IMG/VR virus record: IMGVR_UViG_3300032323_001402
Span: 1 to 62,177 of that record
Direction: 5' to 3' (one strand)
Origin: a virus
DNA length: 62,177 nt
Below are positions 51,070 to 56,755 of the stretch, piece by piece. The notes beneath the pieces are model-generated. The model made no database searches and was not told where the DNA came from. It worked only from the letters and a program-made list of their open reading frames with translations. The position numbers and the translations under genes were made by a program. Each line of letters starts with the position of its first letter. The stretch's first letter is position 1.

Positions 51070-51327
51070 ATGACTAAAATGTACGGTCCGGAAGAAAAAG
51101 CAAAGCTCGAAAGATTAATCAACGAAGGATCAAACGTACTTCGTGAAGTAGAAGATCTCAACGAAGGTCTAAAAGAAACTGTAAAAGCTGTTGCCGAAGA
51201 ACTTCAAATCAAACCAAGCATTATTACCCGTGCAATTAAAATTGCTCATAAAGGTGATTTCAAAGCACACGATGAAGATTGGCAAGAGATCGAAGCTATC
51301 CTTGACATCACCAAGCGACTTGATTAA
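51070..51327 (+). CDS. dsbA: DsbA-like double-stranded DNA-binding protein
   Basis: 85 residues. In T4, DsbA binds near late promoters and influences late transcription. Matches: LERLINEGSNVLREVEDLNEGLKETVKAVAEEL, then a helix-turn-helix-like IKPSIITRAIKIAHKG and a C-terminal EIEAILDITKRL. Good AAGGAG ribosome site and its own promoter. It is followed directly by a membrane protein and the DNA polymerase. Given the many T4-like late boxes, a late-transcription role fits. Confidence 0.8.
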   Translation: MTKMYGPEEKAKLERLINEGSNVLREVEDLNEGLKETVKAVAEELQIKPSIITRAIKIAHKGDFKAHDEDWQEIEAILDITKRLD

Positions 51328-51611
51328 TGTTTAATTCAACTGTTGATTGGATTAAGGAAGACTACGCTACACATCCTGTACGTTTTGTATTAGAACTGTT
51401 AGCATGGTTTATGAGTATTGGCTGTACGATTTGGATGGGGTATACACTACCTAATCCTCCCTTCATATATCTATACCCTTTGTTTGTTATACAGTGTACA
51501 ATATTTGGGTGGGCAGCTTGGACCCGGGGATCAACTGGGATGATCGCTAACTATCTATTGATCGCCACTATCGATGTCATTGCCTACACAAGGATGATAA
51601 GTAATCTATAA
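51327..51611 (+). CDS. Conserved phage membrane protein
   Basis: 94 residues, ATG overlapping the dsbA stop (TAATG). Three hydrophobic segments (FVLELLAWFMSIGCTIW, FIYLYPLFVIQCTIFGW, MIANYLLIATIDVIAYT) suggest three membrane passes. I recall homologues in T4-like marine phages, often near gp43. Function unknown. Confidence 0.65.
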   Translation: MFNSTVDWIKEDYATHPVRFVLELLAWFMSIGCTIWMGYTLPNPPFIYLYPLFVIQCTIFGWAAWTRGSTGMIANYLLIATIDVIAYTRMISNL

Positions 51612-51620
51612 GCAAGGTCG

Positions 51621-51665
51621 GCGGGCCATAAACCGCATATTGGTATTTGCAAGCCGTAAGTTGCA
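51621..51665 (+). promoter_or_regulatory. 43: Tandem 8-base-loop hairpins before gp43 (candidate operator)
   Basis: Two small hairpins in the 66-base gap before gp43. The first has stem GCGG/CCGC (51621-51636) with loop GCCATAAA. The second has stem TGCAA/TTGCA (51648-51665) with loop GCCGTAAG. The loops share GCC-x-TAA. The second ends directly before the ribosome site TAAGGAG (51666-51672). In T4, gp43 represses its own translation by binding an RNA hairpin with an 8-base loop at this position. Confidence 0.5.
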
Positions 51666-51677
51666 TAAGGAGAATAA

Positions 51678-54347
51678 ATGAGTTACGTAGACGCTTTCTA
51701 TGATAGAGAGCAGGACGTTATCAATGTCGTTGAACGTGACGACAAAGGTAACAGACATTTCAAAGAATATCCCGCACGGCATATTTTCTATTATCCTGAT
51801 CCAAAGGGCAAATATCTTTCAATTAAAGGTGAACCGTTAAGCCGTGTTACCAGCAAGAATGTTAAAGAACATCGTAAAGAACTTGCGATTCACAGTAACA
51901 AACGATTATTCGAAAGTGACATCAATCCAATTTATCGTTGTCTAGAAGACAACTACCTGAATGCCGATGCCCCAAAACTAAATGTAGCTTGGTTCGACAT
52001 TGAGGTGGACTTTGATCCAGAACGTGGTTACGCATCGCCAGAAGATGCATTCATGCCAATTACTGCGATTGCCGTTCAATTACAATGGATGGACACTATG
52101 GTGTGTTTGGCATTGCCCCCTAAGACGCTGTCAATGGAAGAAGCAACTAAGCAGGTTGCAGAATTTCCTAACACTATGTTGTTCGAGACAGAAGGCGAGA
52201 TGCTAGACACGTTTCTTAACTTAATTGAAGATGCAGATGTATTAAGTGGCTGGAACAGTGAAGGCTTTGATATTCCTTACACCGTTAATCGTGTCACTAA
52301 GGTATTGAGCAAAGAAGACACTCGACGTTTTTGTTTATGGAATCAGTATCCTAAGAAACGTGAATATGAAAAATATGGTAAGAGTGCAGTTACATATGAT
52401 TTAATTGGTCGTGTACACTTAGACTCGTTGGAACTATATAGAAAATACACATATGAAGAACGCCATACATATCGATTAGATGCTATCGGTGAGATGGAGA
52501 TTGGTGAAAACAAAACAGTCTACGAAGGCACACTTGATCAATTATACAACAATGACTTCCGTAAGTTTATTGAGTACAACAGACAAGACTGTGCGTTGCT
52601 TGATAAACTAGACAAAAAACTCAAGTTCTTAGCTCTTGCTAACACCCTGGCGCATGAATGTACTGTGTTGTTGCAGACTACTATGGGAGCAGTGGCAGTT
52701 ACTGAACAAGCAATTATTAATGAATCACACCGCCGCGGACTTATTGTTCCTAATCGTATACAGCGTGATCCTAATGACAGTAATCAAGCAGCAGGTGCGT
52801 ATGTTGCGTATCCGAAAAAAGGCATTCACGAATGGATCGGCTCACTAGATATTAACTCACTATATCCATCTGCGATTCGTGCATTAAACATGGGTCCAGA
52901 AACTATTGTTGGACAGTTACGTCAAGACGGTACCAAAGACTTTATTGCGGCAGAGATAGGCAAAGGAAAATCTTTTGCCAGTGCTTGGGAAGGTGTGTTT
53001 GGTAGTCTAGAATATACTGCTGTAATGAATCGTGAAGTAGGCCGAGAAATCACTATCGATTGGGAAGACGGTGGTAATGACACATTAAGTGCTGCTCAAG
53101 CCTACGACTTAATTTTTGAAAGTAATCAACCTTGGATGCTCAGTGCTAACGGCACAATCTTTACTTACGAAAAAGAAGGTATCATTCCCGGACTGTTAAA
53201 GCGTTGGTATGCAGAGCGTAAAGACATGCAGACTAAATTAAAAGAATGTATTCAAGCAGGAAATAAAATTGAAGAAGAATATTGGGACAAACGTCAACTG
53301 GTTAAAAAGATTAACCTCAATAGCTTATACGGTGCTATTCTTAACCCTGGTTGCAGGTTCTTTGATAATCGTATTGGCCAATCCACAACTCTTACCGGCA
53401 GAGCCGTTGCTCGTCATATGGCTGGGAAAGTAAATGAAATTATTACCGGAGAGAACGATCACATTGGTAAAGCAATTATCTATGGTGATACAGACTCTTG
53501 TTATTTTTCTGCATACAGTACGCTGAAGAAAGATATTGAAAAAGGATTAATTCCTTGGAGCCGTGAAAATATTATTGATCTTTATGATAGCATAGGAGAA
53601 GAAGTAAATGGCACATTTCCAAAGTTTATGCAAGACGCATTCCACTGTCCAAAAGTCAGAGGTGAAGTCATCAAAGCAGGTCGCGAGATTGTTGCTTCCA
53701 AAGGACTATTCATTACTAAAAAACGATATGCAGTCCTCTACTACGACAAAGAAGGCAAACGAACAGACACAGACGGCAGCCCTGGTAAGATTAAAGCCAT
53801 GGGGCTTGACCTAAAGAGATCGGATACTCCTGTAGTCATCCAAGACTTTTTAAGTGAAGTACTTACTAAGGTTCTTAACGGTGCTGCTAAAGAAGAAGTT
53901 CTCGAATATATTACCGACTTCCGTACTGAATTTAAAACCCGTCCAGGTTGGGAGAAAGGTAGTCCTAAACGTGCCAATAATATTTCCGAATATGCTGCTA
54001 AGGAAAAGAAAGCAGGTAAGACCAACATGCCCGGACACGTTCGTGCTAGTTTGAATTGGAATACCCTAAAGCGTATGATGGATGACAAGTATTCTGTGAC
54101 TATTACTGACGGTGCTAAAGTCATTGTATGTCGTCTTAAAAACAATCCTATGGGGCATACTTCAGTGGCATATCCTGTAGACGAATTGCGTTTACCACAG
54201 TGGTTTAAAGATCTACCGTTCGACGATGCAGAAATGGAAACCACAGTCATCGATGAAAAATTAGAAAACCTAATTGGTGTTTTGGAATGGGACATCAGTT
54301 CAACTCGCAGTGATAATACATTCAGCAAATTATTTGATTTTGATTAA
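51678..54347 (+). CDS. 43: Family B DNA polymerase (gp43)
   Basis: 889 residues, about the T4 length. The replicative polymerase with 3'-5' proofreading. Exo I FDIEVDF (~106), Exo II SGWNSEGFDIPY, Exo III YNRQDCALL. Polymerase motif A SLDINSLYPSAIR (~390), motif B KKINLNSLYGAILN (~545) and motif C IYGDTDSCYF (~600). All catalytic acids are present. The C-terminal end LFDFD probably binds the clamp (a similar LFDFD occurs near the end of DpdA). A strong TAAGGAG site lies after the hairpin leader. Confidence 0.97.
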   Translation: MSYVDAFYDREQDVINVVERDDKGNRHFKEYPARHIFYYPDPKGKYLSIKGEPLSRVTSKNVKEHRKELAIHSNKRLFESDINPIYRCLEDNYLNADAPKLNVAWFDIEVDFDPERGYASPEDAFMPITAIAVQLQWMDTMVCLALPPKTLSMEEATKQVAEFPNTMLFETEGEMLDTFLNLIEDADVLSGWNSEGFDIPYTVNRVTKVLSKEDTRRFCLWNQYPKKREYEKYGKSAVTYDLIGRVHLDSLELYRKYTYEERHTYRLDAIGEMEIGENKTVYEGTLDQLYNNDFRKFIEYNRQDCALLDKLDKKLKFLALANTLAHECTVLLQTTMGAVAVTEQAIINESHRRGLIVPNRIQRDPNDSNQAAGAYVAYPKKGIHEWIGSLDINSLYPSAIRALNMGPETIVGQLRQDGTKDFIAAEIGKGKSFASAWEGVFGSLEYTAVMNREVGREITIDWEDGGNDTLSAAQAYDLIFESNQPWMLSANGTIFTYEKEGIIPGLLKRWYAERKDMQTKLKECIQAGNKIEEEYWDKRQLVKKINLNSLYGAILNPGCRFFDNRIGQSTTLTGRAVARHMAGKVNEIITGENDHIGKAIIYGDTDSCYFSAYSTLKKDIEKGLIPWSRENIIDLYDSIGEEVNGTFPKFMQDAFHCPKVRGEVIKAGREIVASKGLFITKKRYAVLYYDKEGKRTDTDGSPGKIKAMGLDLKRSDTPVVIQDFLSEVLTKVLNGAAKEEVLEYITDFRTEFKTRPGWEKGSPKRANNISEYAAKEKKAGKTNMPGHVRASLNWNTLKRMMDDKYSVTITDGAKVIVCRLKNNPMGHTSVAYPVDELRLPQWFKDLPFDDAEMETTVIDEKLENLIGVLEWDISSTRSDNTFSKLFDFD

Positions 54348-54407: not shown

Positions 54408-55145
54408 ATGAAAGACATTTTACAAGACATCGTAAGTCATACACAAAACCTTGGCTTCCTAACAACTGTTAAAGTTTCAGGAACTGAACAAGGTACAACT
54501 ATTAACTCAATGGCTGATGACCGTTCAGTTATTATGGAGGCTGAGACTGCTAATCCATATCCAGACATGTTAGGTGTGTTTGGTATGCCACAACTACAAA
54601 AACTCAAATATCTATTAGATGGTGCTGAGTACAAAGACGATGCTAAAATTAGTATCACGACAGCAGAACGCAACGGAGAAACTATTCCAGTTGGCATTCA
54701 CTTTGAAAACAAAGACAGTGACTTTAAAAACGACTATCGTTTTATGTCTACTGAAGTTATTAACGAAAAGATGAAAACTGTTAAGTTTCGTGGAGTTAAA
54801 TGGGACGTTGAAGTTGATCCTAGTGTTAGTGCTGTGCAACGTTTCAACTTCCAGGCAGGCGCAAATTCAGAGCATCCAACATTTCTTGCTAAAACAGATG
54901 GTGGCAATTTGAAATTTATCTTTGGCGATGCAAGCACACACGGTGGTGAGTTTATTTTTGCACAAAATGTTGAAGGTAAATTAGATCGTGGCTGGACATG
55001 GCCAGTGTTACCAATCTTGAGCATTCTTAAGATTGCAGATGTTAACAACACTAAGATGTCATTATCAAATGAAGGTGCTATTCAAATCACTTTAGATAGC
55101 GGACTTGCTACTTACAAATACATTATTCCAGCTCAGGCAGCCTAA
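54408..55145 (+). CDS. 45: Sliding clamp (gp45-like)
   Basis: 245 residues, near the T4 length (228). A trimeric ring that tethers gp43 to DNA and, in T4, activates late transcription. Clamp-like features: NLGFLTTVKVSGTEQGTTINSM, PYPDMLGVFGMPQLQKLKYLL and the C-terminal GAIQITLDSGLATYKYIIPA. Own consensus promoter and GGAG site; dpdA begins three bases after its stop, linking clamp and DNA-modification expression. Confidence 0.85.
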   Translation: MKDILQDIVSHTQNLGFLTTVKVSGTEQGTTINSMADDRSVIMEAETANPYPDMLGVFGMPQLQKLKYLLDGAEYKDDAKISITTAERNGETIPVGIHFENKDSDFKNDYRFMSTEVINEKMKTVKFRGVKWDVEVDPSVSAVQRFNFQAGANSEHPTFLAKTDGGNLKFIFGDASTHGGEFIFAQNVEGKLDRGWTWPVLPILSILKIADVNNTKMSLSNEGAIQITLDSGLATYKYIIPAQAA

Positions 55146-55147
55146 AT

Positions 55148-56755
55148 ATGAAACAACCAGTTGATCTAACACCGTTGCAGAAAGATTATGCAGTATACTT
55201 ACCAGCTATCAGTGCTTTTTATAGCACGTATGTTGCCAAGCAACGTTTAGAAAAGTTTATTTCAGACGATCGTATTCCTGCGGGATTTGATCGTGGTGTT
55301 GAAGGTATGAACTTCCTAAATCCCGAACAAGGCTATTTCTTTTACAAATACGGTTTGTATTCGGCAGGTCATGCACAACTTGATTTGCAAAAGAGTCTTG
55401 TACAAGAATCAATGATTCAAGATCGAGATCGTTCAAAGACAATGATCTTAGGTGACTCCGGCGGGTATCAGATTGGTAAAGGTGTTCTTAAGTTTGACTG
55501 GTTAAACTTTGAAGGTGCAGAAGCTACTAAGACTCGTCAGAAAATTCTTGAATGGTTAGAACTTACTGCTGATTGGTCAATGATGCTAGACGTTCCGACA
55601 TGGGCTTGTGATCATATTCACAGTCCAAAAACTGGATTAAAGACATTTGAAGATTGTTTAGAAAAGACTCGGTATAATAACGATTATTTCTTAATGAATC
55701 GGTTAGGAGCCACTAAATGGCTTAATGTACTACAAGGTTCAGATTGGGATACTGCTGAGAAATGGTATAACGGTGTTAAAGAGTTTAGCGATCCAAATGG
55801 CAAGTATGCTGGACGTGAAGCAGAAGGGTGGGCCATGGGTGGTGCTAATATGTGCAAAATGGACATTACTCTCAAACGACTGATGACTATGCGTGAAGAT
55901 GGCTTGTTAAAAGGCAAGAACTGGATGCACTTCTTGGGTACAGCTCAGTTAGATTGGTCATGTTACTTAACTCTTATCCAACGTCAGATCAGAAAGCATA
56001 TCAATCCAGAGATTACAATCAGTTTCGACTGTGCATCACCGTTCATTGCTACTGCACACGGACTTGTTTATACTAATGCTGTTCACACTAACAAGCGTTG
56101 GTCGGTGATTATGGACAAGGCTCCAGATAATAAAGCACTTGCTAACTCAGATATTCCGTTTCCGTTTGAAAGTGAGTTTGCTTCTAGACTTGTTATGGGC
56201 GATATTGCATATTACGACTACGGTGTTCGTAAGACTGATGAAGAACTAGGTGACGTTAAATTTAATCACTTAGATCCATCACATTATAATGTTGTGCCTA
56301 AACTTAATAAACTAGGTAAGATTCCAAACAAAACATCGTGGGATAGTTTTGCTTACGCACTAATGATGGGTCATAATGTTGAATGTCATATTGTTGCGGT
56401 ACAACGTGCTCAACAGTTGATGGACATTGAATGTGCGAGATTTAAACCAGATTGGCGTATGAAGAGCATTGAAGGCAAGAAAGAAATTGAATTCAGCGAT
56501 TGGGTTCCTAATAGAATTCTATATTTTGCGGCCTTTGTTGAAGAACTATTTAATACTAAAACTAAAGCAGAAGCATTCCAATTAATTTCGGATGCTGCTG
56601 GATTCCTAAAGAGCTTAGAAGGTTCACGCTTACAGGGCGGTCCTGCTGCAAACACTTTTGGCAGTTTGTTTGATTTTGATGATGGCAAAAAGTCTGCAGA
56701 AATTGACTTTTCAAATCCCGATGATGACGATCTAAATAGCTTAGTCGTTGAATAA
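55148..56755 (+). CDS. dpdA: DpdA-like DNA 7-deazaguanine transglycosylase
   Basis: 535 residues. A paralogue of tRNA-guanine transglycosylase that exchanges guanine in DNA for a 7-deazaguanine such as preQ0. Active-site motifs: MILGDSGGYQIGKG (residues ~99-112; TGT has TDSGGFQ) and SFDCASPFIATAHGLVYT (~291-308; TGT has FDCVLPTRNARNG), giving the two Asp residues. The middle (HFLGTAQLDWSCYLTL) matches the TGT barrel. It lacks a plain CxCxxC zinc motif. The NTFGSLFDFDDG segment near the end resembles the LFDFD tail of gp43 and may be a clamp-binding peptide, which would place DpdA at the replication fork. Co-transcribed with gp45. Confidence 0.85.
   Translation: MKQPVDLTPLQKDYAVYLPAISAFYSTYVAKQRLEKFISDDRIPAGFDRGVEGMNFLNPEQGYFFYKYGLYSAGHAQLDLQKSLVQESMIQDRDRSKTMILGDSGGYQIGKGVLKFDWLNFEGAEATKTRQKILEWLELTADWSMMLDVPTWACDHIHSPKTGLKTFEDCLEKTRYNNDYFLMNRLGATKWLNVLQGSDWDTAEKWYNGVKEFSDPNGKYAGREAEGWAMGGANMCKMDITLKRLMTMREDGLLKGKNWMHFLGTAQLDWSCYLTLIQRQIRKHINPEITISFDCASPFIATAHGLVYTNAVHTNKRWSVIMDKAPDNKALANSDIPFPFESEFASRLVMGDIAYYDYGVRKTDEELGDVKFNHLDPSHYNVVPKLNKLGKIPNKTSWDSFAYALMMGHNVECHIVAVQRAQQLMDIECARFKPDWRMKSIEGKKEIEFSDWVPNRILYFAAFVEELFNTKTKAEAFQLISDAAGFLKSLEGSRLQGGPAANTFGSLFDFDDGKKSAEIDFSNPDDDDLNSLVVE

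Follow-up and report, generated by a model that had tools for sequence, protein, structure and literature searches.

Two tandem pseudoknots ahead of a phage DNA polymerase gene: a putative translational operator in uncultured T4-like phages

We describe here an element found in the leader of the DNA polymerase gene, gp43, both in a stretch of viral DNA of 62,177 nucleotides (hereafter called the window) and in uncultured relatives. Comparison of these leaders strongly supports the view that two covarying hairpins located before gp43 are real and form a structure. Judging from the sequences, the leader seems to fold further into two tandem H-type pseudoknots, and covariation supports the additional pairing in the first of them. 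On balance, we favour the reading that this leader is a cis-acting translational operator built of two tandem pseudoknots, which would be bound by gp43 and would probably be autogenous.

The gp43 leader and its two hairpins

The leader is 66 nt long and corresponds exactly to the gap between the stop of an ORF of 94 aa located directly upstream (51327-51611) and the gp43 start. The gp43 gene itself (51678-54347, + strand, with its ATG at 51678) encodes a family B DNA polymerase of 889 aa, matching Pfam PF00136 and PF03104 as well as PHROG 262, and an exonuclease domain is also present. Its product is about 50% identical to that of Phosso, the closest isolated phage, and identity to T-even phages, cyanophages and similar relatives among the matches listed is mostly 24-31%. 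As to the neighbourhood, an 85-aa ORF two genes 5' of gp43 (51070-51327) matches PHROG 639 (transcriptional regulator) and PHROG 12534, and the ORF next after gp43 (54408-55145) matches PHROG 12062 (unknown). Phosso has a similarly sized gene shortly 3' of gp43, annotated as a sliding clamp. A 535-aa ORF (55148-56755) has neither a Pfam nor a PHROG match.

The hairpin of unit 1 (51621-51636, + strand) has a 4-bp stem, composed of GCGG (51621-51624) and CCGC (51633-51636), which encloses the loop GCCATAAA (51625-51632). In unit 2 (51648-51665, + strand) a 5-bp stem, TGCAA (51648-51652) and TTGCA (51661-51665), encloses the loop GCCGTAAG (51653-51660). Both loops are 8 nt long and share 6 of their 8 bases, and both hairpins are backed by compensatory changes in relatives. 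A Shine-Dalgarno (SD) sequence, AGGAG (51668-51672, + strand), starts 3 nt past unit 2, the spacing in relatives being discussed below. The first-pass annotation, made from the letters alone, had pointed to this pair of 8-nt-loop hairpins, to the 6/8 match of their loops and to the 5-bp stem of the second hairpin next to the ribosome site, and it was correct on each of these, the coordinates included. In random 66-nt leaders of the same dinucleotide make-up as the window, pairs of hairpins of this kind whose loops agree in 6 or more of the 8 bases arise with a probability of about 0.00025 (0.025%). The whole window contains 5 hairpins with a GCCNNAAN loop and a stem of at least 4 bp (1.7 expected), and the two leader hairpins are the only ones there with GGT 5' of such a hairpin (0.0 expected). 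A covariance model of the two-unit element, R1, matches the window at 51609-51666 (+ strand) with 73.6 bits, and this is its sole significant match there.

Thermodynamics alone would not have brought out the two-hairpin structure. The minimum free energy (MFE) of the single leader sequence, -17.2 kcal/mol (z -0.41), belongs to another fold, and the two-hairpin fold reaches -11.9. Relatives (e.g. L001) do not conserve the pairs of the MFE fold, and on this comparative evidence we rejected it.

A promoter-like element, TAAGTA (consensus TAARTA), is located about 17 nt 5' of unit 1 (51598-51603, + strand), a distance also seen in most relatives. Its putative role is suggested by position-specific enrichment: TAARTA occurs within 35 nt of unit 1 in 158 of 191 distinct leaders. 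Within the window both TAARTA (65 occurrences vs 123 expected) and TATAAATA (1 vs 5.9 expected) are scarcer than chance predicts, as if they were avoided outside functional sites. Were TAARTA a promoter, the mRNA would start at unit 1.

Conservation, covariation and the pseudoknot pairing

Relatives were collected by five IMG/VR scans based on polymerase homology, which gave about 365 loci, all uncultured, with polymerases ranging from 99% down to roughly 70% identity to the window gp43. The element is present in nearly all of their gp43 leaders, and several clades are without it. According to a simple parser, 201 of 247 distinct leaders contain at least two units, 32 contain a single one and 14 lack any, and these figures are an undercount, as many of the leaders scored as having one unit possess two, the bulged stem of unit 1 having been missed, and in several of those scored as having none (L310, L348, L387, L402, L243) the element lies farther upstream, before an inserted ORF. 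In some clades (L248-L267, L371-L377) a single unit adjoins the SD and another hairpin lies upstream; there, unit 1 is replaced by an unlike hairpin, e.g. GTTGC-CTTAA-GCAAC.

The initial description had named a lack of stem or loop conservation in relatives as the outcome that would speak against it. What we found is conservation of the stem and the loop in each of the two units, accompanied by extensive covariation. In an alignment of 45 sequences made with MAFFT, in which structure was not used, 97.4% of cells are paired, compared to 86.2% after shuffling and 44.4% in the best slid control, and the covariation score is 0.333 vs 0.109 when shuffled. The respective values for 99 sequences are 95.7%, 80.7% and 44.5%, with covariation of 0.416 vs 0.151; this second alignment was fitted to the hairpins of the model, and its hairpin counts are therefore biased towards them, the pseudoknot being absent from the model. 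G-U pairs are present in the stems of the 99 sequences. Stems of unit 1 include GCGG/CCGC, GATCA/TGATC, ACTCA/TGAGT, AACCA/TGGTT, GTCG/CGAC and others, frequently with a single bulged base, and those of unit 2 begin with TGCAA, TGTCT, TGTGA, TGAGA, TGTCA, TGCGA, TGCCA and others, each of them complemented on the other side. The loops are held while the stems are rewritten, with a consensus close to GCCNYAAN, and the loop of the last unit measures 8 nt in 212 of 233 cases. The distance from the 3' end of unit 2 to the SD is 0-4 nt in nearly all leaders. Conservation and covariation thus lend good support to the proposal that gp43 has a regulatory element in two copies.

The pairing of a GGY triplet with the loop goes beyond the two hairpins of that description. 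GGY is located 2-3 nt 5' of both stems and can pair with the GCC which opens each loop. Such pairing gives an H-type geometry, with a 3-bp stem, a loop of 2-3 nt crossing the stem of 4-5 bp, stems that adjoin each other without a loop, and a third loop, NYAAN, that is rich in A. In the window, GGU of unit 1 (51616-51618, + strand) would pair with 51625-51627, and GGU of unit 2 (51642-51644, + strand) with 51653-51655. RNAalifold, unprompted, predicts the pairing in unit 1.

In unit 1 the triplet covaries with the loop GCC. Among 272 distinct matches there are 215 with GGU/GCC, 34 with GGC/GCC, 9 with AGU/GCU (10 if L209, lying one column off register, is included), 4 with GGU/ACC and 1 with GGC/GTT (L366), rows outside these states being off register or spurious. 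Neither AGU/GCC nor GGU/GCU occurs among them, and the GGC/GCC and GGU/ACC variants, like AGU/GCU, preserve the pairing. One pseudoknot pair is broken in L381, whose loop opens with TCC. In L366 (778-838) unit 1 has GGC with the loop AGTTATAAT, which starts with none of GCC, GCU and ACC, and a GGCU/AGUU pairing is still possible there. On the gp43 tree the A/G state of unit 1 changed about 8 times, and in 7 of 7 independent pairs the base in the loop changed along with it (sign test p 0.016). Four of the AGU/GCU leaders (L114, L450, L466, L477) have an identical unit 1 sequence from AGT on, and the transfer of a single leader may account for some of these seemingly independent events; the joint change is found with stems of at least two different kinds (GATCA/AATCA and GTCG). 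When pseudoknot 1 is considered alone, the covariation score is higher at a -1 slide (0.187) than in the true register (0.165), whereas 98.7% of cells are paired in the true register vs 63.0% at the -1 slide, and both the percentage paired and the number of two-sided changes are above all shuffles.

In unit 2 the GGU is near-invariant, and its variants, GGU/ACC (L465, L473) and GGC/GCC (L476), are one-sided changes that keep the pairing, with no two-sided change. The pseudoknot stem has just 3 bp, with G-C almost always in the middle and U-G as the usual third pair. We also considered pairing of the unit 1 GGY with the unit 2 loop and rejected it: leaders with AGU/GCU in unit 1 retain GGU/GCC in unit 2, which places the pairing within a unit.

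Placement of the element in phage genomes

We searched 20 whole contigs of 95-372 kb with R1, and the same contigs together with the window with R2, a model of one unit. In the 20 contigs, all R1 matches at E <0.02 and all R2 matches at E <0.1 are gp43 leaders; one contig (G014) gave no match to either model at those cut-offs. Lone weak units elsewhere are conceivable because R2 scores even unit 1 of the window only at E 0.17. A search of IMG/VR for the unit 2 pattern, in which gene context was ignored, returned loci located nearly all at gp43; in the few located elsewhere the stems were mostly broken and gp43 was absent. Weak R1 matches about 640 nt past gp43 (L478, L456, L460) turned out to be the coding sequence of the next gene and not the motif, and inspection of weak second matches in four long contigs (G005-G008) showed no element. 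No significant match was found in the leaders of the isolates Phosso, Atu_ph07, Vibrio 2.275.O, 121Q, T4, JS10, S-H38, S-ShM2, Slickus01, CBB and MED4-213. A scan of bacterial genomes matched just two MAG fragments and gave no firm host.

The element stands either before gp43 or before a gene cluster that ends in gp43. An ORF lies between them in L096, L104, L105, L125, L243 and L387, its end overlapping the gp43 start as ATGA, which fits translational coupling. In L096, L104, L105, L125 and L387 the inserted ORF with this stop/start ATGA is short (about 57-63 aa) and rich in Cys. Inserted ORFs of about 204 aa in L183 (- strand, after 3448) and L243 (393-1004) resemble 2-oxoglutarate/Fe oxygenases by eye, and L183 has a separate SD after its insert. 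In L310 and L348, which carry near-identical inserts, the element lies about 800 nt from gp43 (about 200-990), and in L310 a 247-aa, Cys-rich antisense ORF, a candidate endonuclease, is located in between. The apparent gp43 start in many relatives (the L005-L050 leaders and others) is TTG, not ATG, in the context GGAGAAAAATTTGAGTTA.

A proposed operator, its rivals and its kin

According to the reading that we favour, each unit would follow one plan, namely GGY, 2-3 nt, a stem of 4-5 bp, the loop GCC-NYAAN and the closing strand, with GGY pairing with the loop GCC. Unit 2 adjoins the ribosome site. Free gp43, when in excess of its DNA substrate, would bind the units, ribosome loading would then be blocked and gp43 synthesis would halt, and the presence of two units could allow double or cooperative occupancy. 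We infer action at the RNA level, translational repression and gp43 as the ligand. The last of these seems the most likely choice because the element marks one gene and because the gp43 proteins of T4, RB69 and RB49 repress their own translation and bind hairpins of their leaders, the loops of which have UAAC/UAAA (PMC3014915). Several points speak against the reading: such autoregulation is not universal among T4-type gp43 proteins (PMC3014915), the element is missing from several clades, an antisense ORF separates it from gp43 in L310 and L348, MFE folding favours another structure, and the pseudoknot stem is short and without two-sided changes in unit 2. The more far-reaching proposal, that this is a new RNA family, a tandem-pseudoknot autogenous polymerase operator with two gp43 molecules on two knots, which replaced or reinvented the T4 hairpin in a large uncultured T4-like clade, appears to us evenly balanced between true and false.

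The data reveal an RNA and not its ligand, and the same operator might be bound in trans by an SSB/gp32 homologue, a RegA homologue or another phage RNA-binding protein; in T4, a pseudoknot of a leader is bound by gp32, and many replication mRNAs are repressed by RegA (PMC3014915). However, a regulator of several genes should leave units before other genes, and none was found in the 20 long contigs; RegA sites, moreover, have been described as unstructured (PMC3014915). We consider a trans-acting protein unlikely. It is quite improbable that the leader is a small-molecule riboswitch, for example a nucleotide-sensing one, in which two tandem aptamers would control polymerase synthesis. The high conservation of the loops is what such a switch would predict, and tandem small aptamers adjoining the SD are known among riboswitches; on the other hand, the element is placed before one gene only, the units, at about 25 nt and with a loop of 8 nt, would make small aptamers, and the leader matches no riboswitch of Rfam.

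We give similarly little credence to a constitutive mRNA element, in which the pseudoknots would shield the gp43 mRNA at its 5' end or determine how fast it is translated, with no regulator involved. A message beginning at unit 1, as TAARTA would imply, and the position of unit 2 next to the SD both suit this idea, but it leaves unexplained why near-invariant loops are kept in two copies while the stems are free to vary, and why the element occurs only at gp43. Finally, as gp43 is a replication gene and single-stranded DNA is able to fold, one might think of a structure or site in DNA (an origin, a primase site or a protein site). This seems hardly credible given the fixed orientation and spacing with respect to the SD; also, the G-U pairs of the stems and the usual U-G third pair of the pseudoknot favour RNA over DNA.

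The autogenous RNA-hairpin control of T4 DNA polymerase was the system of the first use of SELEX, no gp43-RNA structure was available at the time of review, and among viral pseudoknots that of the T4-type gene 32 was considered perhaps unique in serving translational autoregulation (PMC3014915). The element described here, a compact and repeated RNA of a polymerase leader, comes in hundreds of natural variants and constitutes a covarying RNA family absent from Rfam release 15. If gp43 binds it, the evolution of RNA specificity in a DNA polymerase, cooperative repression by two units and a possible convergence of distant T4-like phages on one mode of control would become direct questions.

Comparison with the window leader at E up to 10 matched no family of Rfam 15, STAXI and guanidine-II included, and a search of eight related loci gave nothing at gathering scores; a search of whole records with RF01728 (STAXI) had no match in any control genome, and is uninformative alone. 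We found no description of the element in the literature, where our coverage of subscription journals was thin. The guanidine-II (mini-ykkC) riboswitch has two tandem hairpins with matching ACGR tetraloops near the SD, and shares with our element two tandem hairpins of matching loops by the SD, but the loops here are 8-nt GCCNYAAN and not ACGR.

The first-pass annotation had ascribed to the leader the architecture of the T4 gp43 operator, and this holds in part. Like the operators of T4, RB69 and RB49, the element lies near the ribosome site in the gp43 leader, with a stem of about 5 bp and an 8-nt loop. The T4 leader, however, has one simple hairpin, AGCCU-AAUAACUC-GGGCU, with a 5-bp stem and an 8-nt loop and with 'no evidence' of a pseudoknot (PMC3014915), whereas here there are two units, each with a GGY-GCC pseudoknot. 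A UAA triplet is found in the loops of both (UAAA in RB49, PMC3014915), at loop positions 5-7 here and 3-5 in T4; our loops often end with YAAA or YAAG, in a register differing from the T4 UAAC/UAAA, and they have a near-invariant GCC. The element itself is absent from T4, and no sequence homology is detectable (both R1 and R2 miss T4). The T4/T2 gene 32 leader pseudoknot is likewise H-type and precedes a replication gene, whose translational autoregulation it serves; in contrast to it, the element precedes a family B polymerase gene, is smaller, occurs in two copies and has unit 2 directly at the SD, without a long A+U-rich tract over the ribosome site. STAXI motifs (RF01728) are tandem repeats of small pseudoknots near genes for DNA-handling proteins (PMC2864571), and two tandem pseudoknots near a DNA-handling gene are seen here too, but the UUCG tetraloops frequent in STAXI are not. 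Lacking defining features of each of the three, the element is not a member of any of them; by function and position it comes closest to the T4 gp43 operator and by fold to the gene 32 pseudoknot, and it resembles STAXI as a tandem pseudoknot near DNA genes.
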